Shown: one piece after another, positions 17,063 to 31,838 of the stretch
Position numbering within the stretch: the stretch's first letter is position 1
How the letters are laid out: each line of letters begins with the position of its first letter
Assembly: GCF_025150745.1 (NCBI RefSeq)
Contig: NZ_CP102282.1
Span: forward strand, 2,181,501 to 2,245,500
DNA from: Eubacterium ventriosum
Lineage (GTDB): Bacteria; Bacillota; Clostridia; Lachnospirales; Lachnospiraceae
DNA: 64,000 bases
Reading direction: 5' to 3'
Translations under genes and position numbers: made by a program
The notes under the pieces: generated by a model
Told to the model about the DNA's origin: nothing
Database searches by the model: none
Seen by the model: the letters and a program-made list of their open reading frames with translations, nothing else

Positions 17063-17260
17063 CTTATAAGTAGCTCTCCATCAATGTGATTGTCGATAAT
17101 GGCTCTCCATCAAATGATGACAGTCATACGGCTCTTAACCGTATGCCCAGGATAAATCTTCCGGTGGATTCTCCTTCGGCGCTACATCCTTTCCAACATA
17201 ATCATCTGCCTCCGGGGCATCTTATAATGTACTGATAGGTAGCGCAACCTCTACTATTAT
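17063..17260 (-). promoter_or_regulatory. Lysine riboswitch (L box)
   Basis: Read on the minus strand, this RNA shows the lysine aptamer signatures in order: GTAGAGGTTGCG at the 5' P1 strand, CAGTA, GGAAAGGATGTAGCGCCGAA, a stem-loop closing in ATACGG...CCGTAT, ACTGTCATC, and GATGGAGAGCTAC as the 3' P1 strand pairing with GTAG at the start. It lies directly between the dapA promoter and a terminator, as in known transcriptional OFF switches. Oddity: the 12-bp segment GATGGAGAGC with its flank occurs twice, 29 bases apart (17073-17084 and 17102-17113). Another repeated TACTTATAAG flanks the terminator entry. Confidence 0.9.
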
Positions 17261-17272
17261 TTAACTAAAGTA

Positions 17273-17423: not shown

Positions 17424-18701
17424 TTATTTTACCGTAATATAATACTTCTTTATTACATCTTCCTTCGGATTAGCTTTAGCCTTAACAGGATTGTTTCTAT
17501 CATATCCTTTAGGCATTCCTAATTTCTGATATAAATATCCTAAATCAGTGATTTTGCCTTCATAATGATTAAGCAAACCTGAACCGCCGTTTTTGTAATC
17601 CGTTGGACTAAACGAGAACCACGCGTAACGTTCCACATAATCTCTTTTATCAAGTCCGGCAATAACTTTTTTCATATATCGCATTACTACTTTTCTCTGG
17701 AATTTAGTTTTACCCGGATCTCCACTAATGGCAAATTCAGTAATCCAAATAGGCTTATGGTACATTTCCCATGTTTCATCAACAAGGTCGAGAAATGCCT
17801 GTGCCCCTTCATCTGCATACCAGTTCCAATAATGATGTATTGGTATAAAATCCACATCCATGTTCTGTTCTTTCATCTTCTTCATAAAAGGCACAAACCA
17901 ATTATCTGACCATGGCGGACACAAAGATGTTGCAGGTGCTCCAACACGTATTCCTTTATTCTGAAAAGCTTTCATTCCCTTAACTGCCGTATCAACATCC
18001 AAGTTTGCCTGATCCTCTCTGTCAGGCTCGTTGAAAGCTAACACTGACTTATACCCCATCTTTGGAAATACTGCAATCTGGTCTTTATCTCCCGGAAATG
18101 ACGACCACATCATAGGTACAAATTCCATCTCCTGAAATGAGTCATAACTAAAAGGTGTCATGTCCCAATTATAATACCAAGATGTACCCCAATCTGTTGC
18201 TGTTACATTCATAGACATATCTTTATTAAGACAAAAGCCTTTCTTATTTACAAAGAAAGTGTAAATATCAGAATAAACAACTGATCCATACTGCATATCA
18301 GCTTCCACATATATTTCATGGGATTGTATCTTCGTTGTGTAATATTCAAAAGATGTAGTCTTTGAATCTGTTTCTGCCACTTTTTCATTATCTATATATA
18401 ACTTATAGCCTTCAACCTTTCCCATATTCTTGGCTGATTTCCATTCAATTGTTATATATCCTGCTGCTTTAAGTGAACCTGATGTCGGTGTAATGAAGGC
18501 ATCACTTTTCCACTTATCCTTTTCTTTTACAATCTTCTCTGCTGCAGAGATTCTGGCTTTCTGCTCTCTTTTTGCAGCCTCTACATTTTGATGCTTTATT
18601 ATTGCAACAATACACGCTGCAAGAACAGTGGCTCCCAAAATCAATATTAATATAATTTGAAATATTCCTTTTAATGATATTCTTTTATTTTTAGAAGTCA
18701 T
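17424..18701 (-). CDS. Membrane-anchored GH128-family glycoside hydrolase
   Basis: A 425-residue enzyme of the Glyco_hydro_cc / GH128 type, whose characterised members are endo-beta-1,3-glucanases. Residues 13-35 form a single membrane anchor after a basic start (MTSKNKRISLKG), so the catalytic part faces outward. An Ig/Fn3-like domain (about 66-150) precedes the barrel (about 160-400). Clan GH-A catalytic glutamates are E225 in FNEPD (acid/base) and E322 in WITEF (nucleophile). Unlike its three paralogues it lacks the C-terminal Fn3 module, so anchoring probably replaces it. Last gene of the island; 138 bp and a terminator separate it from the previous one. Substrate is inferred from family only. 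Confidence 0.85.
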   Translation of the reverse strand: MTSKNKRISLKGIFQIILILILGATVLAACIVAIIKHQNVEAAKREQKARISAAEKIVKEKDKWKSDAFITPTSGSLKAAGYITIEWKSAKNMGKVEGYKLYIDNEKVAETDSKTTSFEYYTTKIQSHEIYVEADMQYGSVVYSDIYTFFVNKKGFCLNKDMSMNVTATDWGTSWYYNWDMTPFSYDSFQEMEFVPMMWSSFPGDKDQIAVFPKMGYKSVLAFNEPDREDQANLDVDTAVKGMKAFQNKGIRVGAPATSLCPPWSDNWFVPFMKKMKEQNMDVDFIPIHHYWNWYADEGAQAFLDLVDETWEMYHKPIWITEFAISGDPGKTKFQRKVVMRYMKKVIAGLDKRDYVERYAWFSFSPTDYKNGGSGLLNHYEGKITDLGYLYQKLGMPKGYDRNNPVKAKANPKEDVIKKYYITVK

Positions 18702-18775
18702 AATCTATCCTCTCTACATTTGCTAATGACACAATTTCAGATTTTTATTTTAATGTCACATACGTAAATAATATC

Positions 18776-18807
18776 AAAAAGAAGAGGCTATTAAAACCCC
18801 TTCTTTT
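18776..18807 (-). terminator. Terminator after the GH128 gene at 18840
   Basis: AAAAAGAAG (18777-18785) pairs with CTTCTTTT (18800-18807), with GG/CC extending the stem. A TTTTTGATATT tail follows on the minus strand. Confidence 0.65.
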
Positions 18808-18839
18808 AATATGCTGCCATTTTAGGCTACTTAATCTAA

Positions 18840-20333
18840 TTACTTTTTAACTGTAATTGATTTTACTTTGCTGTAAGAACCATATAACTTCTTGTTTCCA
18901 TTTATTACATAAGCTCTTACTTTAAAGTAATATTTAGTCTTCTTATCTAATTTCTTAACTGTATATGTATTCTTCTTTGAATTCTTCTGCCAGTATCCGT
19001 TAAACTTCTTGTTATCAGAATATTTAATCTGGTATCCCTTAACTTTCTTGATTTTCTTAATAGATACTTTAACTTTTCTGCCTTTTACATTTTTAAGTTT
19101 AGAAATCTTTGCTCTTGCAGGCTTATTAACCTGTGGCTGAGTATTGTTGTTATTATTGCTACTATTGTTTGAGCCATTGTCTGATGAAGGCTGATACTTA
19201 TTAACTGCACTTCCCTGAGCTGCAAGCTCTGTTGGGTTACCGTTATTTACATAAATATTGCCTAAATCTGTAAGCTTACCTGTTGAATTAGTCCATAATG
19301 CTGATGCACCGTTACTATTGTCTGTAGTGTTAAATGAGAACCATGAATATCTTTCAACATAACTTCTCTTATTTAAACCTTCAATAGCTGTTTTTAGGAA
19401 TGCTTCAACCTGTTTTCTATTTGAAGCATTGCTATACCCCCAACCACTTACTGCAAACTCAGTAATCCAAATAGGTTTATGATACATATTATAAGTTGCG
19501 TCTACCACTTCTTTAAGGAATGTATTTGCTCCTGCTGCACCACCATATGTTCCGTAATAGCAATGTAATGGAATAAAATCAATAGTACTCTTGTCAACCA
19601 AATCACTATCCATAAATGTTCTAAACCACGTTCCGCTATTCCATGCCGGACAAAGAGCCGGTGCCGGTGCTCCTAAGTAGTCACTTTTTCCTGTTAATTT
19701 TGCCCAATGAGAAGCTGCTACATTAACATTAATATTACTGCCACCAACATCACCTTTCATATCTGGCTCATTGTACCCAAGTAAATATTTGTAATTTTTC
19801 TTAGCAATTGCATCTAACTGAGACTCACTACCTGTTCCCCAAATCATAGGAACAAACTCAATTTGCTTATATGTTGTGTAAGAAAATGGTGTGGTTCCCC
19901 AAGTATAATACCATCCCATATTCATAGCTACAGGATCAAGTCTTCTACCCATATCATTATTAACTGCTAAACCTTTCTTAGAAACACCAAACTTAACTGT
20001 TTTAGTATATTCCTTACTACCATTTGACAGTACAGCTTCAATCCATGTTGTATGATATTTCACACTTGTTGTGTAATAATCATATCTGTTTGTATTAGTT
20101 GAAGTTACATAATTTCCGTCAATGTATATATTATATTTTGAAACAGTTCCACTAGTAGGATTATTCCAATCAATGTAAACATGACCTGCCCCAACAATAC
20201 TTTCATTTGTAGGACTTGTTATCTGAAATTCTGTAGCTGCCTTGACGCTTTCAGTGAATGTACCTGTTACATTCACTGAAAATGCCATAGCTACTACCAA
20301 AACTAAAATTGTTATTTTTTTTAATACCTTCAT
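18840..20333 (-). CDS. Secreted GH128-family glycoside hydrolase with Fn3 tail
   Basis: A 497-residue secreted enzyme with signal peptide (1-32, cleavage near VKA-ATEF), an Ig/Fn3-like domain (37-118), a GH128 barrel (about 125-375), an Asn/Ser-rich linker (382-404) and a lysine-rich Fn3 module (405-497). Catalytic glutamates are E189 in YNEPD and E292 in WITEF. The barrel has conserved WYYTWGTTPF and FIPLHCYYG. Known family members cut beta-1,3-glucan internally. It starts only 14 bp after the stop of the next paralogue upstream, so the two form one transcript. The basic Fn3 tail probably holds it in the wall or on glycans; that is inference. Confidence 0.87.
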   Translation of the reverse strand: MKVLKKITILVLVVAMAFSVNVTGTFTESVKAATEFQITSPTNESIVGAGHVYIDWNNPTSGTVSKYNIYIDGNYVTSTNTNRYDYYTTSVKYHTTWIEAVLSNGSKEYTKTVKFGVSKKGLAVNNDMGRRLDPVAMNMGWYYTWGTTPFSYTTYKQIEFVPMIWGTGSESQLDAIAKKNYKYLLGYNEPDMKGDVGGSNINVNVAASHWAKLTGKSDYLGAPAPALCPAWNSGTWFRTFMDSDLVDKSTIDFIPLHCYYGTYGGAAGANTFLKEVVDATYNMYHKPIWITEFAVSGWGYSNASNRKQVEAFLKTAIEGLNKRSYVERYSWFSFNTTDNSNGASALWTNSTGKLTDLGNIYVNNGNPTELAAQGSAVNKYQPSSDNGSNNSSNNNNNTQPQVNKPARAKISKLKNVKGRKVKVSIKKIKKVKGYQIKYSDNKKFNGYWQKNSKKNTYTVKKLDKKTKYYFKVRAYVINGNKKLYGSYSKVKSITVKK

Positions 20334-20347
20334 ATTTATGTCCTCTT

Positions 20348-21892
20348 CTATCTAGTCTTAACTTTAACTTTATCTTTGCTGCTCCATGCGCAATATAATC
20401 TCTTTCCATCAAGAGTCTTATATGCTCTTACACGTACATAATATTTAATTCTCTTAAGCTTTTTCTTCTTAATCTGTTTTTTCTGTTTCTTTGTGAACTT
20501 AATCTTAATTGTTCCGTTTAATTTCTTAACATATTTGCTCTTTGAGCCTTTCATGTTCTTCTTAACACCATACTGTACCTGGTATCCTGCTGCTTTTGAA
20601 ACAGCTTTAATCTGATACTTGAAAGCTTTCTTTTTAGCTTTTGCACTATATAATGTTGTTGGCATGGCTAATGCACAAGCTGCTGGTGATGTATTAGTTG
20701 AAATGTAAGAACTTACACCATACGTTTTTGCATTATATCCTAAAGGATTTCCAATCTGTGCATAAATCTTTCCTAATGTTGTTAATTCACCAGTCTTGTA
20801 ATTAAAGATACTTGATGAGCTTGCTGCATCTTCTTCTATATTTGGACAGAACCATGAATATCTTTCAACATAGCTTCTTTCATTAAGACCTTTAATAACG
20901 ATCTTCATAAATTCCTGTACTTTTGCACATCCTGCTGCATCGTTAATGCTGAATTTCCAGAAAGCAAATTCTGTAATCCAGATTGGCTTATGATAAGTTT
21001 CCCAGCATTCATCAATTGCCTGAAGGTACTGAAGTGCTGACTTAGCTCCATCATAGCTTTTCTGGTATGAATGAACTGCTATAAATGACATAGCATTCTT
21101 CTTGTCTGCTGCCATTGAGTTCCAGAATGGTGTCCACCAATCGTTTGACCATGTAGGGAAAACTGAAACTGCTGGTGAACCAAGTCTTACATTACCTTTG
21201 TTATTTACACAGTCATTCCATCTATACTGCATAACATCAGGTCTTACATTTGATTCCCATGTTAAATCAGGTTCATTATAAGCTAATAAATACTTATAAC
21301 CTTTGCTCTTAACATTATCAAAAATCTCGCTTGTTTCTGTCATGCTGTCGCCCCAAATCATTGGTACAAATTCCAAATCATCAAACTTCTTGTTTGAGAA
21401 GTTCATATCTTTAAATGACTTCCAATCCCAGTTGTAATACCAACCAACATTCATTGAGGCTGGATCTACTGCTGTACCCATATCTTTAGTGTTTACACAA
21501 ACACCTTTCTTTGTTACATAAAAACGTCTGTTAGCTGTCTGAACGTTTGAACCGTTCTTTAATGTTGCAACTACATATACATTATGTTCACTTACCTGTG
21601 TTGTATAGAACTCTGTACTCATAGTCTTGTCTGATGAAGGTGATACTGTTACTTTTAAATCACCATCAACATAAACTTTATACTGTGATACGTCTGTTAA
21701 TGTGTTATCCCATTTAACATCAATGTATCCTGCGCCAATTAACTTGTCCTGTTTAGGACTTACAATGCCATTAGCCTTCCAATTGTCTGTTGCTGTATCA
21801 GCTTTTACTGTAGTAGGTCCGCTTATTGCAATACCTGTTGCAAACATTGCCAATGCCAAAACAATTGAAGTGATTCTTTTAAATCCTTTCAT
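20348..21892 (-). CDS. Secreted GH128-family glycoside hydrolase with basic C-terminal module
   Basis: A 514-residue secreted paralogue: signal peptide (1-31, VKA-DT), Ig/Fn3-like domain (about 44-128), GH128 barrel (about 135-395) and a very basic Fn3-like tail (about 415-514) rich in Lys/Tyr (YYVRVRAYKT). Catalytic glutamates are E207 in YNEPD and E308 in WITEF. WYYNWDWKSF and FVPMIWGD match the barrel strands of its neighbours. AGGAAGGAG lies 7 bases from the start. First gene of a two-gene unit with the 18840 paralogue. Substrate preference within beta-1,3-glucans (linear, branched, mixed) cannot be read from sequence. Confidence 0.87.
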   Translation of the reverse strand: MKGFKRITSIVLALAMFATGIAISGPTTVKADTATDNWKANGIVSPKQDKLIGAGYIDVKWDNTLTDVSQYKVYVDGDLKVTVSPSSDKTMSTEFYTTQVSEHNVYVVATLKNGSNVQTANRRFYVTKKGVCVNTKDMGTAVDPASMNVGWYYNWDWKSFKDMNFSNKKFDDLEFVPMIWGDSMTETSEIFDNVKSKGYKYLLAYNEPDLTWESNVRPDVMQYRWNDCVNNKGNVRLGSPAVSVFPTWSNDWWTPFWNSMAADKKNAMSFIAVHSYQKSYDGAKSALQYLQAIDECWETYHKPIWITEFAFWKFSINDAAGCAKVQEFMKIVIKGLNERSYVERYSWFCPNIEEDAASSSSIFNYKTGELTTLGKIYAQIGNPLGYNAKTYGVSSYISTNTSPAACALAMPTTLYSAKAKKKAFKYQIKAVSKAAGYQVQYGVKKNMKGSKSKYVKKLNGTIKIKFTKKQKKQIKKKKLKRIKYYVRVRAYKTLDGKRLYCAWSSKDKVKVKTR

Positions 21893-22006
21893 ATTGTAAT
21901 CTCCTTCCTATAAAAAGTACCCTCTTTGTTATATATATTTTACAATTTATATTTGATAATAAATTGTTTGTTTTTAATTTTATTATTTTCTTTTTAAAAG
22001 AAAATA

Positions 22007-22054
22007 AAAGGGCGAAAAATACTGCATACACCATACAATATCTTTTCACCCTTT
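22007..22054 (-). terminator. Terminator after the CBM protein at 22095
   Basis: AAAGGG-GAAAA (22007-22017, one mismatch) pairs with TTTTC-CCCTTT (22043-22054). A TTTTCTTTTAAAAAG tail follows on the minus strand. Confidence 0.7.
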
Positions 22055-22094
22055 CACCTGCTCTAAGATTAATATTATGTTATCTAAAAATTAA

Positions 22095-23360
22095 TTACTT
22101 TATGAATACTTTCTTCTTAGCTGAGAACTTACCGTATACCTTCTGTCCTGTAGAATCTTTTGCAAAAGCTCTAACCTGAACATATGTGAACTTTCTTGAT
22201 TTAAGTTTCTTAATAGTATACTTAACCTTAGTAGTTGTCTTAGTCTTAGCACCCTTCATGTTCTTCTTTGCAGAATACTTAATCTGGTAACCTGCTGCAT
22301 TCTTAACCTTCTTATATCTAACTGTTGCTTTCTTCTTAGCACCTTTAACCTTAATTGATGGTTTTCCAGGCTTAGCTGTCTTATTAAATACAGCAACAAG
22401 TTCTAAATCACTGTTAACTGCTGAACCAAAGTTGTACATAGCACCTGTAGCTTTGTTCTTGAATCCTGCTAATGTGTAGCCTTTCTTTGAAAAGCTTGCT
22501 GGTGTAACCTGGCTTCCTGCATTAACATACTTAGCCTGTGACTGGCTTCCGTCAGTAAACTTAACTGTATACTGATCACCTGCAATAACCTTTAAATCCT
22601 TAACATAAACTGTTCCCTTCATGTTAACTTCTTCTGGGAATGTTTTGATGAATGCACCTAAAGCGAACTTAAGTCCCATAACATCTCCGCCAAATGCCTT
22701 TCTTGTATCTGGAATCTTAACTGTAGCTGTTACTGTCTTATAATCATCACCATTCTTTACTGTGATATAACCACCACTAGTAGCACCTGAAACTGATGTG
22801 AAGTTTACACTTGGTTCACCCTTAGATTTCTGATCATATGCTTTGAATAAGATATGTTTTGAATCTATTGTCTTTTCTTCCTTTGTTTCTTCGTTTGTAA
22901 CAGTACCCTTTAATGTACTTTTAATCTTGAAAGAAATTGTATAATTACGACCTAATTCAACCGGAATGTCACTAACTGTCATTGTTAATCCCCATGGATT
23001 ATCTCCAACTAAAGCGCTTGTGAACTTGTTGTACTCTCCATCCCATCCTGTGTTCTTAACAAACATTTCCATATTAGATGTTGATATTTTACCATTCTGA
23101 TCTGTAAGCCATCCTTCTGTTACGAAATCTTTTCCGGCAACCTGTCCATTAGGATATTTGTCTGTTCTGATATTTTCTAATGCTTTCTTCCAAACTCCAC
23201 CATCTTCTTCTGTTAAGATAGAAAATGAACTAACCTTAGCATTTGTTGCAACATCTGCTCCATTAGAAGCATGTGCTGCTGAAACAACTCCTGTCATTCC
23301 AACAACCATTGTTAATGACATTGCTACTGCTGTAGCTTTCTTTAAAATACTCTTTCTCAC
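22095..23360 (-). CDS. Secreted CBM4/9-like protein with Flg_new repeat and Fn3 tail
   Basis: A 421-residue secreted protein without a catalytic domain. It has a signal peptide (1-29), a beta-sandwich (about 45-260) resembling CBM4/9 carbohydrate-binding modules (RNYTISFKIKS and a closing VYVKDLKVIAG strand), one Listeria-Bacteroides/InlB-type repeat (Flg_new, about 262-326, KKGYTLAGFKNKATG) and a lysine-rich Fn3 module (330-421). GGGAGGACTTAAA supports the start. It lies inside the GH128 island and follows another CBM-Fn3 gene by 94 bp. A role in binding glucan at the cell surface is inferred from context; the CBM family is assigned from pattern only and could be a different beta-sandwich. 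Confidence 0.75.
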   Translation of the reverse strand: MRKSILKKATAVAMSLTMVVGMTGVVSAAHASNGADVATNAKVSSFSILTEEDGGVWKKALENIRTDKYPNGQVAGKDFVTEGWLTDQNGKISTSNMEMFVKNTGWDGEYNKFTSALVGDNPWGLTMTVSDIPVELGRNYTISFKIKSTLKGTVTNEETKEEKTIDSKHILFKAYDQKSKGEPSVNFTSVSGATSGGYITVKNGDDYKTVTATVKIPDTRKAFGGDVMGLKFALGAFIKTFPEEVNMKGTVYVKDLKVIAGDQYTVKFTDGSQSQAKYVNAGSQVTPASFSKKGYTLAGFKNKATGAMYNFGSAVNSDLELVAVFNKTAKPGKPSIKVKGAKKKATVRYKKVKNAAGYQIKYSAKKNMKGAKTKTTTKVKYTIKKLKSRKFTYVQVRAFAKDSTGQKVYGKFSAKKKVFIK

Positions 23361-23402
23361 TTTAAGTCCTCCCGACTAACATAAACTCTTCTTATTGTTA
23401 CA

Positions 23403-23430
23403 GTTACCCAATGCATACGCATTGGGTAAC
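23403..23430 (-). terminator. 12-bp perfect hairpin between two CBM-protein genes
   Basis: GTTACCCAATGC (23403-23414) and GCATTGGGTAAC (23419-23430) pair perfectly around ATAC. The T-tract on the minus strand is weak, so read-through from the 24612 gene into the 23360 gene is likely. Confidence 0.5.
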
Positions 23431-23454
23431 CTAATAGTTTATAAATTTTATGTA

Positions 23455-24612
23455 TTATTTTTTAATTTTAACTTTTACAGTCTTGCTCCAAGCACCTGTT
23501 TTGAATCCTGTTGCTTTAGCACGAACTTTAATCTTGTATGTCTTGCCCTTCTTTAACTTCTTAACTGTTAAAGTAGCTTTCTTTGCTGTATAAGTTTTAT
23601 TTCCAACCTTAACTTCGTACTTCTTAGCGTTTGCTACTTTTCTCCAAGTAACCTTAACTGTTTTAGCCTTGTTATTCTTAGCCTTAACTTTAGCTACTCT
23701 TGCAAGTTTTTTAGCTGCTGGCTGTGCTGGCTGTGCTGGCTGTGCTGGCTGTGCTGGCTGTGATGGCTGTGATGGCTGTGATGGCTGTGATGGCTTTGTT
23801 GGCTGTGTTGGCTGTGTTGGCTTAGGTGGTTCTACTATAAAATCTGGATTCTGACCCTTATCTGTAATAGTGAAATCACTTACACTAACAGTTCCTTTCC
23901 AACACTTTTCTACTTCTGTAATAATGTTTGAAACATCTGCGCCAGCGAAATCTGCCTGTGCATCAAATGCACCTAACATCAATGTTGTTTTAAGTGTGCT
24001 AGCAGATACCCAGTTTGTAAATGTAAATGTAAATGTCTTATCCTTTGTTCCTAATGTAATAATCTGATTTGAAGCATCATTTGCAAATTCAACTGGAGCC
24101 TGATCATATGGTGCCAAGTCTTTTGTTTCAGTTCCAAATGCAACATAAGCATGTTTTTTCTTATCTGCATGAGCCTTAAATGAAACTGTATAAATATGTC
24201 CCGGTGTCATAGATGTCTGATTTATCGCCTGAATTGACCATGGATTAATTCTGTCTGTTGGAAAACCTGTATTAACCTTCCACTGGCAATCCCAACCATT
24301 ATTGTTGATTACCATATCAAAACCTGTTGCTGACTTTGTTGCTGACTTTTCCTGATTAACACTTTCTTCTCCTTTTGTTAACCAGCCATCAATTTTTTCA
24401 CCAGTTCCGTTCATTGTAACTGAACCAATGTATCCTTCATTGCCTTCTTCAGTTGGACTGTACTGTCCTCCCTGAACAAATGACCAATTTGAAAGTGCAA
24501 CTGCTGTATCAGCAGCCTTTACACTACTTGAAACACCAACGCCAATAGCCAATGATGCTACAAGTGTTGTTGCTGTAATTCCAGCTAAAACTTTGTTGAA
24601 AACTTTTCTCAT
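23455..24612 (-). CDS. Secreted CBM-like protein with Pro/Gln linker and Fn3 tail
   Basis: A 385-residue secreted protein: signal peptide (1-33), CBM4/9-like beta-sandwich (about 40-258; GHIYTVSFKAHAD and a closing GTVSVSDFTITD strand), a linker of repeated QPT/QPS/QPA triplets (about 264-297), and a lysine-rich Fn3 module (299-385). No hydrolase motif is present. The start is placed at MRKVFNKVLAG (24612), because AAGGAGG lies 8 bases ahead; an in-frame ATG at 24663 has no such site. A promoter with a perfect TATAAT is at 24682. Probably a glucan-binding surface protein working with the neighbouring GH128 enzymes; this is inference. Confidence 0.77.
   Translation of the reverse strand: MRKVFNKVLAGITATTLVASLAIGVGVSSSVKAADTAVALSNWSFVQGGQYSPTEEGNEGYIGSVTMNGTGEKIDGWLTKGEESVNQEKSATKSATGFDMVINNNGWDCQWKVNTGFPTDRINPWSIQAINQTSMTPGHIYTVSFKAHADKKKHAYVAFGTETKDLAPYDQAPVEFANDASNQIITLGTKDKTFTFTFTNWVSASTLKTTLMLGAFDAQADFAGADVSNIITEVEKCWKGTVSVSDFTITDKGQNPDFIVEPPKPTQPTQPTKPSQPSQPSQPSQPAQPAQPAQPAQPAAKKLARVAKVKAKNNKAKTVKVTWRKVANAKKYEVKVGNKTYTAKKATLTVKKLKKGKTYKIKVRAKATGFKTGAWSKTVKVKIKK
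23720..23820. repeat. 9-bp tandem repeat coding for the Pro/Gln linker
   Basis: On the plus strand GGCTGTGCT repeats four times, then GGCTGTGAT four times, then three GGCTNTGTT variants, all in frame. They encode QPA, QPS and QPT/QPK steps. Such arrays slip easily, so linker length probably varies between strains. Confidence 0.85.
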
Positions 24613-24681
24613 TTTCAATTCCTCCTTAATTTTTAATTGTTTTAAATATTGCTTGAAATTCATCCCATTTCAATTGTTTTG

Positions 24682-24710
24682 ATTATATCATAAACGTTTT
24701 TATTCTACAA
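24682..24710 (-). promoter_or_regulatory. Promoter of the CBM gene at 24612
   Basis: A perfect TATAAT (24682-24687) with a 17-bp spacer to a weak TTGTAG (24705-24710) lies on the minus strand, about 70 bp ahead of the start codon. The remaining AT-rich bases between 24613 and 24918 hold the glucanase terminator and no gene. Confidence 0.55.
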
Positions 24711-24886
24711 CACTTAAATGTTTATTTTTGCCAATAAAAAAAGTTTTATCATAATTTCTATGTGTATTTTCACTTATAAACAAATACTTCTATGCTATTG
24801 TAAAAGATTTTACTTGTGTAATTTATTTAAAAAAAATAAATATCAAAAAAATATTTCTACATATATTATATATTATTTTGTTTTTA

Positions 24887-24917
24887 AAAGGAACAGCCTT
24901 ATAACTGTTCCTCTTTT
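24887..24917 (-). terminator. Terminator after the GH128 gene at 24919
   Basis: AAAGGAACAG (24887-24896) pairs with CTGTTCC-TTTT (24905-24916). It begins right at the stop codon and is followed on the minus strand by AAAAACAAAA. The stem is clear but the T-tract is short. Confidence 0.6.
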
Positions 24918-24918
24918 A

Positions 24919-26631
24919 CTATTTGCGTATAACTATTTTTTTAACATTTGACCATTTGCCGATTCCCGCACTATTAATTGCTCTAATTCTAAAATAGTAT
25001 TTTTTCTTTTTTGACAATCTGTTTATTTTTATATTTGGCTTTGTTGTTTTCTTTGTTTTAACACCTTTCCTAAACTTCTTATTTAAAGAATACTGTATCT
25101 GATATTTTGTCTTTCCGCTTACTTTTTTCCATGTTAGTTTCACTGTTTTCTTTTTCACATTTCTAGCTGAAATTATTTTAACCTTATCGGGTTTATTTAT
25201 TTTTTTACCTGTGGTCTGATTATTTTTTCCGGTAGTTGGTGAAACTGATGTTGGATTGTTTGTTGTTTCTGTAATTTTTTCTGTAGTCTCTGGTGTTGTC
25301 TGTGGAACATACACATACATTTCGTTATCAGATATAGTTTCTGCATTGTAACCTTCAGGGTTACCTAAATTGCAATAGATTCTTCCTAGATTTGTATACA
25401 AACCTGTTGCATATTCAAACATAGCTGTTCCGCCTGATCCGTTATATATATCTATATCATTTGTACTGTCTATGTCATATGGGAACCAACAATATCTTTC
25501 TACATAAGGTACTTTGTCAAGTCCTTCAACTAATTTTGTCACGTATTCTTCTACCTGCTTACGTCTTTCTTCATTCTCATAACTAAAATCTGTGTATGTT
25601 CCCTTTACACCAAATAAAGACATTTCAGTAATCCATATTGGTTTATGATATGTATTCCATAGTCTTTCCACAGCATCAAACAATCCTTGAGGATTTATTT
25701 GATTTCTGTAGTAATGAAGAACTACAGCATCTACATCTTCTCCAATTCCTTCTGACCATTTTTTTGTAGCATCATCTTCATAATCCTTATATAATCCCCA
25801 CTCTCCCTTTGGTGTCTTACATATGTAATCACCGTTCATAAATCTTTTCAGCCACATAGAATCACCACCCGGTGCTGCAGGTGCCGGTGATACTTTTCTT
25901 AATTTAAGTGGTGATATATATTGTTTCCACACACTTACTGCATCAAAAAACATTGGTATATTTGCCTGTTTTTCAATATCAGGTTCATTAAATCCCAATA
26001 TATAATTGGATGTTGTTTTTAAATTTTCCATATTTTCTTTATTGTCGTCACCAATTCCCCACATCATAGGAATATGTGCAACATTGGCATCTACATTGTT
26101 GTTAAATGATTCTGTTGACCAATTGTAGTACCATGAACAATTTAACTTACTTAATGTGATTTTATCACTCATGTCACCGCCAAGTGCAAGTCCTTTTTTT
26201 GAAACATAAAATGTTCTTGGTTCTGATGTTATAGTCTGACCATCCTTTTTTGCCTCTACAGTAATTTCATGTTTGCTAACTGTATTGGTGTAGACTTCTG
26301 TCTTTCCTTCATCACTTGATGTAAAAGACTTTGTTTTTGATACAGCTGAAACTTTTTCTCCCAGTTCAGATCTTACTATACTATTTCCATCCCAGTATAC
26401 AGGTTGTCCATCAAGGTATACTGAGTATGTATATCCTTCCATGGAATTGTCAAATTCAACATCAATATAACCTGCTCCAATCAACTTTCCTTCTGCAGGC
26501 GTTTTCACAGCGTTTGCTTTCCATTCATCTTCCCGTGTAACAGCACTGACATTTTTTGTGATTCCAAGACCACTTACTACTAATGTTAATGAAAGTACTG
26601 TAGCCACAAATGACTTAAGCATTTTTTTCAT
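24919..26631 (-). CDS. Secreted GH128-family glycoside hydrolase, longest paralogue
   Basis: A 570-residue secreted enzyme: signal peptide (about 1-30), an Ig/Fn3-like domain (about 40-150) larger than in its paralogues, a GH128 barrel (about 160-440), a Thr-rich linker and a lysine-rich Fn3 module (last 90 residues). Catalytic glutamates, counted from the first ATG at 26637, are E218 in FNEPD and E338 in WITEM. The usual WITEF is changed after the glutamate, and there is an insertion (about 280-300) ahead of VLHYYRNQ, so its cleft may differ. The second ATG (26631) is preferred because AGGAGA then lies 8 bases away, against 2 for the first. The C-terminal module is of the same family as in the neighbours. 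Confidence 0.85.
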   Translation of the reverse strand: MKKMLKSFVATVLSLTLVVSGLGITKNVSAVTREDEWKANAVKTPAEGKLIGAGYIDVEFDNSMEGYTYSVYLDGQPVYWDGNSIVRSELGEKVSAVSKTKSFTSSDEGKTEVYTNTVSKHEITVEAKKDGQTITSEPRTFYVSKKGLALGGDMSDKITLSKLNCSWYYNWSTESFNNNVDANVAHIPMMWGIGDDNKENMENLKTTSNYILGFNEPDIEKQANIPMFFDAVSVWKQYISPLKLRKVSPAPAAPGGDSMWLKRFMNGDYICKTPKGEWGLYKDYEDDATKKWSEGIGEDVDAVVLHYYRNQINPQGLFDAVERLWNTYHKPIWITEMSLFGVKGTYTDFSYENEERRKQVEEYVTKLVEGLDKVPYVERYCWFPYDIDSTNDIDIYNGSGGTAMFEYATGLYTNLGRIYCNLGNPEGYNAETISDNEMYVYVPQTTPETTEKITETTNNPTSVSPTTGKNNQTTGKKINKPDKVKIISARNVKKKTVKLTWKKVSGKTKYQIQYSLNKKFRKGVKTKKTTKPNIKINRLSKKKKYYFRIRAINSAGIGKWSNVKKIVIRK

Positions 26632-26818
26632 GTTCATTCTCTCCTTCTTTAATTATAATCTTTTATTCAATATTACGACATGGAAGTATAAAAGTCAAAG
26701 TCTTTTAGATGTTTTGCCCAAATATTTGTATCGATTTTATTTTTCCATAAGTATGTATTCATAGTAGAACATTTTTATGTAATAAAAATGTTGAAGCAAT
26801 ATTCTATCACATAAAAAC

Positions 26819-26852
26819 AATGCTGTAGCACCACTTAGGTTACTACAGCATT
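26819..26852 (-). terminator. Terminator of the SSB-like gene
   Basis: AATGCTGTAG (26819-26828) pairs perfectly with CTACAGCATT (26843-26852), 5 bp past the stop. On the minus strand it is followed by GTTTTTATG. Confidence 0.8.
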
Positions 26853-26856
26853 ATTT

Positions 26857-27486
26857 TTAATCGTCAATATATTCAAGTTTGCTTACAGAAACTTCGTAAG
26901 CAACATGCTTTTCGCTTTCCTCTTCGTTTATTTTTTTCACATACTCGCGACTCTGTACTCTTCCCCAGATTTGAATATGACCACCCACTTCAAAAGTTGA
27001 TGCATATCTTGCATTTCGTCCCCATGCAATACAAGGTATGTAATCTGACTTGCCATAAGGTCGATTAACTGCAACTAATAAATCTGCTATCTCTCTTCCA
27101 AGAGGTGTTTTTCTATAAATAGGTGCTTTGCAGATATAACCATCTAAGAATATCTGATTAGTTTTGCCTGATTCAAGGTTTTCTTCTACTTCTTCCCATT
27201 CCCTTACAAAAATCGATAGAACTAACTTGTTTTTTGTTCCTTCATGACGATTATAAGATCTGAACTGACCTGATACTTCAACAAGCCTTCCCTGATAGTC
27301 TTCGCTAACATCAACAAGTCTTTCTGACACCATTAACGGAATTACATCTGTTAATTCACTTAATCTGTCCACCGACACGTCAACTGTGTAGAAACCTTCG
27401 CCAAAAACTTCATGACTGAATTTAAACTCAGAAACTATCTCTCCTATAATACTTACTCTGTTGTTTTCAATAACTTTGTCAATCAT
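26857..27486 (-). CDS. Double OB-fold single-stranded DNA-binding-like protein
   Basis: A 209-residue protein that looks like two SSB-type OB folds in tandem. The first (about 1-100) has NRVSIIGEIVSEFKFSHEVFGE and GRLVEVSGQFRSYN; the second (about 105-209) has IFLDGYICKAPIYRKTPLG, YIPCIAWGRNARYAST and GHIQIWGRVQSREY, the typical SSB strands. The acidic SSB C-terminal tip (DDIPF-like) is absent; the protein ends KLEYIDD. It is therefore unlikely to be the replicative SSB and more likely a clostridial accessory SSB. Good GGGGGAAATACA site. It sits between two glucan-island genes with its own terminator and no evident functional link. Confidence 0.75.
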   Translation of the reverse strand: MIDKVIENNRVSIIGEIVSEFKFSHEVFGEGFYTVDVSVDRLSELTDVIPLMVSERLVDVSEDYQGRLVEVSGQFRSYNRHEGTKNKLVLSIFVREWEEVEENLESGKTNQIFLDGYICKAPIYRKTPLGREIADLLVAVNRPYGKSDYIPCIAWGRNARYASTFEVGGHIQIWGRVQSREYVKKINEEESEKHVAYEVSVSKLEYIDD

Positions 27487-27628
27487 TGTATTTCCCCCTT
27501 TACCATACTTTGGTTTATTATTTTTTTATCATTACTATTATATGTAAAAAAATACCAAATATGTAAAAAATCGTTCGACTTATAACGACTTTCTACTTAG
27601 AAACGTTTTTTGATTGATTAAAAGAAAC

Positions 27629-27652
27629 CCCTCATATCAAAGGATATGAGGG
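27629..27652 (-). terminator. Terminator of the 27672 CBM gene
   Basis: CCCTCATATC (27629-27638) and GATATGAGGG (27643-27652) pair perfectly with a 4-base loop. GTTTCTTTTAATC follows on the minus strand. Confidence 0.85.
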
Positions 27653-27671
27653 ATAACAAAATTATTCTTTA

Positions 27672-28541
27672 TTATTTAACCTTAACAGCTTTCTTATTGC
27701 TCCAATCGCCGTAAGCTTTCTTACCTTTGTTGTAAGCTCTAACTCTTACATAATATTTTTTACCTTTTTTAAGTTTTGAAATTGTGTAAGTAGCCTTTTT
27801 TGTTGTTTTGCTCTTAGCTGACTTCATGTTGCTCTTTAATGAGTACTGAATCTGATATCCTGCTGCTCCTGAAACTTTCTTATATTTAACTTTAACTTTG
27901 CCCTTTTTAGCAGCCTTAACACTCTTTAAGCTAACCTTAGCCGGCTTAGCAGCTCCTAAATAGAAATTAGTAAGTTTAACTGTTGTTGAGAATGTTGGAT
28001 CAACATCTGTAAGCTGTGAAAGAGCACCCTTTGTTGATGTGAATACACCATATCTGATTGCTGCATCCTTATCTGTGTCAACGCCCTGTCTATCACCAAA
28101 TTCTCCACCAATACCGAAGTATACTGATTTAGCATTAGCCTTAGCTGTAAATGTTGTTGAATACTTAGTTGTGCTACCTTTCTTTAATTGAACCCAATCT
28201 GAGAAAGCTAATGTTTCATCTGTTGAAACCTTAATGTATACCCACTTATCACATGTTGATGACTGTGCATCAAATGAAAGTTTATACTGCTGTCCCTTCT
28301 TAACACTGATTCCGTTCTTATAAACCTGAGCACCCCAAGCTCCACCGTATCCGATAGATGCCATCTGTGCTGTCCAAGCCTTATCTGTGTTAGATGTTAA
28401 AGTTCCTTCAGCTCCTTCAGACCATCCTTGTGAGCCTCCGAAATAGCTACCCCAGTTTGCAGCAAAACACTGTGTTCCCATAGTAAATACGAGAGAAAGT
28501 GCTAAAGCAGATGCTGCAATCTTCTTTGTCAATCTTCTCAT
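27672..28541 (-). CDS. Secreted CBM4/9-like protein with Fn3 tail
   Basis: A 289-residue secreted protein: signal peptide (1-28, CFA-AN), a CBM4/9-like beta-sandwich (about 29-198) with aromatic residues suited to sugar stacking (NWGSYFGGSQGWSEG, YGGAWGAQVY, GQQYKLSFDAQS), and a lysine-rich Fn3 module (200-289). It has no catalytic domain. Compared with the two other CBM proteins of the island it is the most compact, with no linker or extra repeat. GGAGGAACAGTC precedes ATG. It is the first gene of the island, 114 bp after the dehydrogenase stop, with its own strong terminator. Ligand (beta-1,3-glucan or related) is inferred from neighbours. Confidence 0.78.
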   Translation of the reverse strand: MRRLTKKIAASALALSLVFTMGTQCFAANWGSYFGGSQGWSEGAEGTLTSNTDKAWTAQMASIGYGGAWGAQVYKNGISVKKGQQYKLSFDAQSSTCDKWVYIKVSTDETLAFSDWVQLKKGSTTKYSTTFTAKANAKSVYFGIGGEFGDRQGVDTDKDAAIRYGVFTSTKGALSQLTDVDPTFSTTVKLTNFYLGAAKPAKVSLKSVKAAKKGKVKVKYKKVSGAAGYQIQYSLKSNMKSAKSKTTKKATYTISKLKKGKKYYVRVRAYNKGKKAYGDWSNKKAVKVK

Positions 28542-30410: not shown

Positions 30411-31715
30411 TTATTCTACACTAAAATGACCTGTTTTTTCAAGTTCTTTAAGTATGTAATAACAAGTTTCTACTCTGTCTCCCTTATCAACATTAACCTG
30501 TATGTCCGCAACTGAATTATATCTTGGTTCTCTCTGATTCATTAATTCAGTAATGTGTCTTACACTCATGTCATTATTTAAAATAGGTCTGTGTGTATGG
30601 TCTTTTACTCTTTCAAATACTGTTTCAGGTGTAGCCTTAAGCTGTACAATAACACTTCCAGTATTTAGTATTTCCACATTTTCATCTCTTAAAACAGCTC
30701 CTCCGCCGCAGGAAATAATTGTTTCTTTTTCTTCCTGTAAATCTCTTAAAGCCTGAGTTTCCAAATCTCTAAAATATTGCTCGCCATTTTCTGCAAAAAT
30801 ATCTTTTATTGCCATGCCTTCTTTTTCAACAATATACTGATCCACATCTACTTCCTTAAAACCTGTTATTCTTGATAAGGCATTGGATATTGTTGTTTTT
30901 CCTGTTCCCATAAAACCTATTAAAGCCACGTTGCAATCTATCTTTCCACTTTCTGAAGCTTTCAAAAGGAATCTAACCATTTCACATGGTGGCTGTCCCG
31001 GTGCAGATGCATTAACTCCTGCCCCAAATGTAACGACTGATTCTGTCATTCTTGTACAAATTCTTGTTACCGCTCCAAGCTCTCCCATTGACATTGTTAT
31101 AATCGGCGCATTTAATTCTTTATTAGCTTTCTTTGAAGCATTTATTAATGTTTTAACATCAACTTTTTCTTTAGGCATTACTGCAATCTTGCAAATATCT
31201 GCCCCTGCTTCTTCCATTGTTTTCAATACATTGAATATATCTTTTTCTGATGGTGTGCCCTCAAAATGATGATTAGAACCAATAACCTTAACTCCGGTGC
31301 TTTTAATATCTAAAAGCAACTTGCCAATGTCCTTCTGGTCTTTATTTTCATATAACTCCACATCAATCATTGCCACATTGTATTTCTCAGATATTTCTGA
31401 AACATACTTGCAAAGTCTGCAATAATCATCAACATCAATACTCTTTTCTCCACCTTCATTTGATGTTCTATATGTATAAATAATTGGGATGTTTTTTAGA
31501 TTATCATTGATAGCCTTAAGACACTGTTCAAACTCAGTTTCGTCATTGTTCTTTACATCATAGAAGTCTGCTCTCCATTCCACAACGTCAGGATTCATAT
31601 TAGCAATCTTCTCTGCCTGTTCTTTTATTTCTTCTAAATCAGTTCCTGTTATCGGAACGCAAATCTTAGTTTGCTTATCACTTAATGTGATTCCTCTACA
31701 CTCTAAAGTCTTCAT
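30411..31715 (-). CDS. aroDK: Fused 3-dehydroquinate dehydratase (type I) and shikimate kinase
   Basis: A 434-residue bifunctional protein covering steps three and five of the shikimate pathway. Residues 1-255 are type I dehydroquinase: WRADFYD, H149 in GSNHHFEGTP and Schiff-base lysine K176 in ICKIAVMP. Residues about 262-434 are shikimate kinase: P-loop GFMGTGKT (267-274), DVDQYIVEKEG, EQYFRDLE, SCGGGAVLR and HRPIL. The start is set at MKTLECRG, with GGGAGG 11 bases upstream; the longer frame to 31763 would place that site inside the gene. The missing step between them, shikimate dehydrogenase, is encoded divergently at 31992. A separate-gene arrangement is usual; the fusion appears intact. 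Confidence 0.93.
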   Translation of the reverse strand: MKTLECRGITLSDKQTKICVPITGTDLEEIKEQAEKIANMNPDVVEWRADFYDVKNNDETEFEQCLKAINDNLKNIPIIYTYRTSNEGGEKSIDVDDYCRLCKYVSEISEKYNVAMIDVELYENKDQKDIGKLLLDIKSTGVKVIGSNHHFEGTPSEKDIFNVLKTMEEAGADICKIAVMPKEKVDVKTLINASKKANKELNAPIITMSMGELGAVTRICTRMTESVVTFGAGVNASAPGQPPCEMVRFLLKASESGKIDCNVALIGFMGTGKTTISNALSRITGFKEVDVDQYIVEKEGMAIKDIFAENGEQYFRDLETQALRDLQEEKETIISCGGGAVLRDENVEILNTGSVIVQLKATPETVFERVKDHTHRPILNNDMSVRHITELMNQREPRYNSVADIQVNVDKGDRVETCYYILKELEKTGHFSVE

Positions 31716-31838
31716 TGGTACAAAGTCCTCCCTTTTTCGCATATACAAAGTATAAATTAGCAAAAGTTCTAAGTCAACCTTAGGGCCTTGGCTAATTTGT
31801 TTTATTGAGAAATTTTTCCTTGTTATTTCAAAAAAATT

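Follow-up and report, generated by a model that had tools for sequence, protein, structure and literature searches.

A probable two-site beta-1,3-glucan feeding system in Eubacterium ventriosum: a genus-wide GH128 island and a distant phosphorylase operon

Parts of the system considered here have been described in several bacteria. AmGH128_I of Amycolatopsis mediterranei (PDB 6uaq, 6ufl, 6ufz) is a subgroup I endo-beta-1,3-glucanase of glycoside hydrolase (GH) family 128, and CBM6E of Saccharophagus degradans (GH128-CBM6; PDB 8j3x) is a GH128 enzyme nearest to subgroup II fused to a family 6 carbohydrate-binding module (CBM), which is reported to disrupt curdlan gel (PMC10956234). Further downstream in such pathways, sequential GH94-GH161 action on beta-1,3-oligomers has been proposed for other Gram-positive bacteria, in whose tandem loci the two phosphorylase genes lie adjacent to each other and to ATP-binding cassette (ABC) transporter genes (PMC6484121, accessible text). 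Within the Lachnospiraceae, the mixed-linkage locus of Blautia producta has a GH16 with CBM4 modules, a GH94 and an ABC transporter (PMC10318527, accessible text). Here we analyze a 64,000-nucleotide stretch of the single-contig, 2.86 Mb genome of Eubacterium ventriosum (genome 2181501-2245500; hereafter the window), of which positions 17424-28541 hold a minus-strand island with four GH128 (PF11790) genes, three secreted CBM4-type companions and one SSB-like gene.

We consider it probable that this island supplies the extracellular, cell-surface part of a system for feeding on beta-1,3-glucan, and that an operon ~0.94 Mb away supplies the uptake and phosphorolysis part. The GH128 endo-beta-1,3-glucanases and three free CBM4-type proteins would act at the surface on insoluble or gel-like beta-1,3-glucan, binding it, probably loosening it and cutting it, with enzymes B, C and D secreted with Ig-like and Lys-rich C-terminal domains and A probably membrane-held; the CBM4 proteins would act as free binding factors, by analogy with the curdlan-loosening CBM6 of a GH128 enzyme. 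The operon's ABC transporter would then import the oligosaccharides, and phosphorolysis by GH161 and GH94 would yield glucose 1-phosphate and glucose. This reading is built on the sequence and fold assignments, the catalytic residues and the retention of both loci in the genus. All parts belong to described families and the GH94-GH161 tandem is already known; what is new is that a beta-1,3-glucan system is divided between two loci and that as many as four differentiated GH128s, along with free CBM4 proteins, form part of the genus core. The use of insoluble beta-1,3-glucan (fungal wall, callose) by Gram-positive gut bacteria seems little described, and no GH128 system in Lachnospiraceae was evident in the titles and abstract openings of the open-licence literature, among the matches listed.

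Proteins of the GH128 island

The eight genes of the island lie in the order CB3, SSB-like, GH_D, CB2, CB1, GH_C, GH_B, GH_A. The enzymes and their companions are as follows.

17424..18701, minus strand: GH_A, GH128, 425 aa, without fn3 tail (PF11790 153 bits, 1.3e-44)
18840..20333, minus strand: GH_B, secreted GH128, 497 aa, N-terminal Ig-like and C-terminal Lys-rich fn3 domains (PF11790 169.7 bits, 1e-49)
20348..21892, minus strand: GH_C, secreted GH128, 514 aa (PF11790 146.6 bits, 1.2e-42; best PDB match 6uaq, 1.7e-23)
22095..23360, minus strand: CB1, secreted CBM4-fold protein with a middle like the Listeria-Bacteroides repeat (below cut-off) and a Lys-rich fn3 tail
23455..24663, minus strand: CB2, secreted CBM_4_9 protein with fn3 tail (PF02018 34.4 bits, fn3 33.5 bits)
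24919..26637, minus strand: GH_D, secreted GH128, 572 aa, with an insertion (from the alignment) and fn3 tail (PF11790 129 bits, 2.7e-37; fn3 36.7 bits)
27672..28541, minus strand: CB3, secreted CBM_4_9 protein with Lys-rich fn3 tail (PF02018 29.9 bits, fn3 30.6 bits)

An earlier reading of the sequence alone had recognized four GH128 paralogues with both catalytic glutamates, and this was borne out: the PF11790 matches of A-D (129-169.7 bits) are all far over the cut-off of 21 bits, and the motifs NEPD and WITE align in all four. Both glutamates are also kept in the 76 of 76 island copies that entered the catalytic-domain tree. A profile search found no PF11790 match in the 2.86 Mb genome other than these four. 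The nearest solved relatives of all four by sequence are GH128 subgroup I endo-beta-1,3-glucanases, in agreement with the earlier assignment to a beta-1,3-glucan system, and A-D are predicted to hydrolyze beta-1,3-glucan. Structures were predicted for GH_B and CB1, so that the barrel was modeled for B alone of the four enzymes; the AlphaFold2 model of GH_B (pLDDT 89.2) has a barrel that matches GH128 structures, with AmGH128_I the best, as the sequence-only reading had anticipated. The GH128 structures among its fold matches are titled either beta-1,3-glucanases or subgroup VII oligosaccharide-binding proteins.

The window proteins differ from AmGH128_I in three ways: they have an N-terminal Ig-like domain, all but A have a Lys-rich C-terminal domain, and they belong to a set of four. 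The common architecture proposed earlier therefore holds at the N-terminus, where the Ig-like domain is backed by the paralogue alignment and by strands at 38-118 of the B model (Pfam Big_7 matched A and B below its cut-off, and C and D had no match), and fails at the C-terminus, since A has no fn3 tail; the fn3 match of GH_B, at 24.8 bits, falls just below the Pfam cut-off of 25. The last 95 residues of GH_A have a Lys plus Arg fraction of 0.16 over 14 copies (0.22 in the window's own A), against 0.32-0.39 in the other classes. A simple pattern for the tail was present in none of 14 A copies and in 8/17 B, 18/21 C, 8/21 D, 6/30 CB1, 7/23 CB2 and 4/19 CB3 copies, and because it is patchy outside A too, the tail assignment uses the Lys plus Arg content and, for the window proteins, Pfam. 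GH_A also has a more hydrophobic N-terminus (mean hydropathy 2.95 in its 14 complete copies vs 1.84-2.20 in the other classes), by which it is probably held in the membrane, though cleavage is possible; 9 of the 14 copies have a signal-peptidase-like site past the hydrophobic core.

The three CBM-like companions were likewise upheld, CB2 and CB3 by Pfam, where both pass the PF02018 cut-off of 25.9 bits, and CB1 by the fold of its model, since it has no CBM_4_9 match in Pfam. The N-terminal domain of the AlphaFold2 model of CB1 has the CBM4 beta-sandwich fold and matches CBM4 structures in a second structure aligner, on which this assignment rests rather than on Foldseek, where the matches of the whole model were largely to fn3 domains and receptors, at low TM-scores. 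The closest known CBM4 is that of laminarinase 16A (PDB 1gui), with 3k4z and 3p6b within 1 Z; CB1-3 differ from it in having fn3 tails and no catalytic domain, and from the fused S. degradans CBM in being separate products (PMC10956234, available part). Their putative ligand is a beta-glucan. By eye, the true start of CB2 is probably the internal ATG of MRKVFNKV. All seven proteins are suited to enzyme and binding assays.

Conservation across the genus

The island region was compared in the window and 22 other genomes of the genus, some of whose assemblies are split over contigs. A synteny search, suggested as a check by the sequence-only reading, recovered the island in 23 of 23 genomes, always beside dapA and/or efp (dapA in 22, efp in 18) and including assemblies of 1.1-1.7 Mb; PF11790 matches number 1-9 per genome. 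CB1 and CB2 are present in all 23, GH_D and GH_C in 22 each, CB3 in 19, a gene in the GH_B slot in 18, GH_A in 14 and the SSB-like gene in 12. GH_D was not seen in the G318 stretch and is read as two pieces in G311, and the G313 contig ends before GH_C. In the nine assemblies of 1.1-1.7 Mb (completeness 59-96), GH_D, CB1 and CB2 occur in 9/9 and GH_C and GH_B in 8/9; GH_A was seen in none of them (G313 not assessable). Relatives from sheep, yak and goat gut (L037, L038, L043) have the same gene order. The island proteins are 33-64% identical to those of the window (best segment), a range resembling that of aroDK (44-70) and nadE (33-73), while the neighbors are at 77-88 (dapA), 84-95 (SSB) and 85-98 (efp).

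In a FastTree tree of the catalytic domain (245 columns), A, C and D are each recovered as a clade (support 1.0, 0.997 and 0.939), whereas the B-slot genes are not monophyletic and are intermixed with copies from elsewhere, implying that the B slot was probably replaced or converted. The tree left out L045 (a translated match with 11 stops) and three island open frames of <330 aa, and its rooting sequences formed no single clean outgroup. B, C and D are 36-41% identical to A, which suggests that the GH128 set is ancient. The strong local expansion claimed earlier thus stands as four paralogues, the only ones in the genome, but not as a recent burst: a recent tandem expansion is ruled out by the genus-wide A, C and D clades together with the 36-41% identity to A. 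In a family sample of 299 genomes, 27 had PF11790 matches at E 0.001, 22 over the cut-off and 8 above 100 bits.

In other genomes of the genus (L018, L020, L021, L024, L124), additional GH_B-type GH128 genes lie in tandem arrays away from dapA, and some GH128 open frames of the genus span 1400-1650 aa.

A distant uptake and phosphorolysis operon

Among the open reading frames of the whole window, read by eye, none next to the island is a sugar transporter, phosphorylase or sugar regulator, which agrees with the sequence-only reading. A GH94 profile search located an uptake and phosphorolysis operon in the same genome (G000:C1:1230000-1257000). It runs in one direction and encodes a 558-aa binding-protein-like product (by eye; no Pfam match), a 1043-aa SBP_bac_1 protein, four permease-like proteins (one of the four examined in Pfam), two other large proteins, a secreted GH16, a LacI regulator, a GH161, a GH94, a GH17 and a discoidin-domain protein. 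Its GH161 matches a beta-1,3-oligoglucan phosphorylase (9qqk, 1.6e-234), and the best match of its GH94, by a wide margin, is laminaribiose phosphorylase (6ggy, 1045.7 bits). GH161, laminaribiose phosphorylase and ABC importer genes are thus found together in this genome (L173, L183), with the two phosphorylase genes adjacent and accompanied by transporter genes as in the GH94-GH161 loci of other Gram-positive bacteria; the difference is the GH128/CBM4 island ~0.94 Mb off, GH128 being unmentioned in the accessible text of PMC6484121. A second GH161-like protein (L174 8382-11525) is 42% identical to the first, and its neighbors resemble, by eye, GH31 enzymes and an AraC-type regulator.

The operon is retained together with the island in most of the genus. 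GH16, GH161 and GH94 occur together in 8/8 stretches from other genus genomes, some of them cut short, with LacI and GH17 in 4/8 and permeases 3 and 4 in 5/8. Across the 23 genomes, GH161 is found in 21 and laminaribiose phosphorylase in 20 (a few as pieces), GH16 in all (4-13 matches each) and GH3 in 19. Of the 8 strong GH128 carriers in the family sample, 6 have both phosphorylases, compared with 24 of the remaining 291 genomes (Fisher 1.5e-5); with the genus excluded the figures are 4 of 6 and 24 of 291 (p 8e-4), both tests being uncorrected for relatedness.

Because the same genome, like most of the genus, has an uptake and phosphorolysis operon with phosphorylases of beta-1,3 type, the earlier suggestions that products may be shared and that fungal walls are the target "rather than food" are weakened.

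Several observations weigh against the two-site feeding reading, or against particular links within it. The two loci are unlinked in the chromosome. G311 (91% complete) has the island and neither phosphorylase was found in it, by which strict coupling of island and operon is disfavored; in G313 (79%) laminaribiose phosphorylase was not found, in G314 (59%) both phosphorylases are below threshold, with a short GH94 fragment, and, of the eight strong GH128 carriers in the family sample, G011 (86% complete) and G036 (99%) are without both phosphorylases. Terminator-like hairpins in the CB3/SSB and B/A gaps imply that the island is probably several transcripts. The Lys-rich fn3 tail of CB3 has 47 matches genome-wide (one with an internal stop), which rules out this tail as an island-specific tag; secreted proteins of this organism apparently use it as a general C-terminal domain. 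Nor does a candidate operator, the palindrome AAACGTTT near CB2, speak for joint regulation: it occurs three times in the window, a count reached by 23 of 100 shuffles, and AACGTT, present upstream of CB2 in 13 of 23 regions (~2 expected from base shuffles), is unenriched upstream of the other island genes (CB3 3/19, SSB 1/11, GH_A 1/14, GH_B 0/17, GH_C 0/21, GH_D 1/22, CB1 1/30). The motif is weak and was picked after being seen, in genomes that are related. Upstream of dapB, AACGTT occurs in 4 of 20. Shared LacI control of the island, which we considered, is therefore unsupported, the motif being enriched at CB2 alone among island genes, where it could equally be a catabolite-repression site.

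Alternative substrates and roles

The alternative we take most seriously, though at somewhat less than an even chance, is that the island mainly opens fungal walls, acting on chitin-bound beta-1,3-glucan together with chitinases, for food or for competition; its substrate overlaps that of the feeding reading. The genome encodes a protein of 2089 aa (L188 2931-9200) that combines three GH18 stretches with a CBM5/12 and has a Lys-rich fn3 tail, and the 'Eubacterium ventriosum group' rose in people given chitin-glucan from 0.349 to 1.564 (p 0.008; PMC12538532, accessible text), a rise also reported in PMC9132890 (accessible text). However, the control arm of the trial rose as well, from 0.285 to 0.549 (p 0.021; between-arm p 0.014; PMC9132890), PF11790 is present in all 23 genus genomes but a GH18 match above 200 bits in 10, and in a purely killing role the cytosolic phosphorylase pair would be needless. 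Cereal beta-1,3/1,4-glucan as the target is unlikely in our estimate. In the accessible text of PMC10318527, B. producta uses similar parts for barley glucan, and laminarin and yeast glucan are further substrates of its GH16; four genus genomes (G305, G306, G307, G308) have an additional strong GH94 match of 585-593 bits; on the other hand, the B. producta GH94 is a predicted cellodextrin phosphorylase inactive on laminaribiose (the same text leaves GH128 unmentioned), whereas the GH94 here is closest to laminaribiose phosphorylase, the assayed GH161 acts on beta-1,3 oligomers with a degree of polymerization of at least 3 (PMC6484121, accessible text), and the titles of the GH128 structures matched by GH_B name beta-1,3-glucanases or subgroup VII oligosaccharide-binding proteins.

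Two further readings concern what the proteins do rather than what they meet. Remodeling of a self-made beta-1,3-glucan (capsule or biofilm) would explain core status even in small genomes, and the constant site beside dapA/efp, the retention in the nine small assemblies and a probably membrane-held GH_A fit it; we find it very improbable, as phosphorylases and GH16 are retained with the island in most of the genus, which fits feeding. That some paralogues are non-catalytic and oligosaccharide-binding, like GH128 subgroup VII, is suggested by the subgroup VII structures 6ubd and 6ubc among the fold matches, and is given the least credence here, with both glutamates in every tree copy and subgroup I first by sequence for all four enzymes.

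Under the feeding reading, the genus-wide island and its named partner operon would provide a concrete mechanism behind the reported link between chitin-glucan feeding and the abundance of this group. A bolder version, which we regard as rather doubtful, makes the genus a beta-1,3-glucan specialist in which the free CBM4-fn3 proteins unwind or loosen triple-helical glucan for differentiated GH128s, one of them membrane-held near the transporter, and so explains why, in people, fungal chitin-glucan elicits a response of the 'Eubacterium ventriosum group'.

The remaining features in and around the island are listed below.

17063..17261, minus strand: lysine riboswitch of dapA (RF00168, 107.7 bits), between GH_A and dapA, forming the downstream island boundary
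24692..24699, no strand assigned: AAACGTTT palindrome, tentative operator in the CB2 promoter region
26857-27486, minus strand: SSB-like protein (NF004476, 338.8 bits vs a cut-off of 171), inside the island

The SSB-like gene, of the PRK05813 type, was absent from the earlier description; it is at this place in 12 of the 23 genus genomes, was not seen there in the other 11, and has no obvious part in the island's function. With names assigned by eye, the island is flanked on one side by dapA/dapB and on the other by a hydroxyacid dehydrogenase-like gene followed by efp. Promoter-like sites are fewer than in shuffles (41 vs a mean of 60) and were not used, except for one at 17301-17273 beside the dapA riboswitch. 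An open reading frame of 450 aa at window 30411-31763 resembles, by eye, a fusion of 3-dehydroquinate dehydratase and shikimate kinase.

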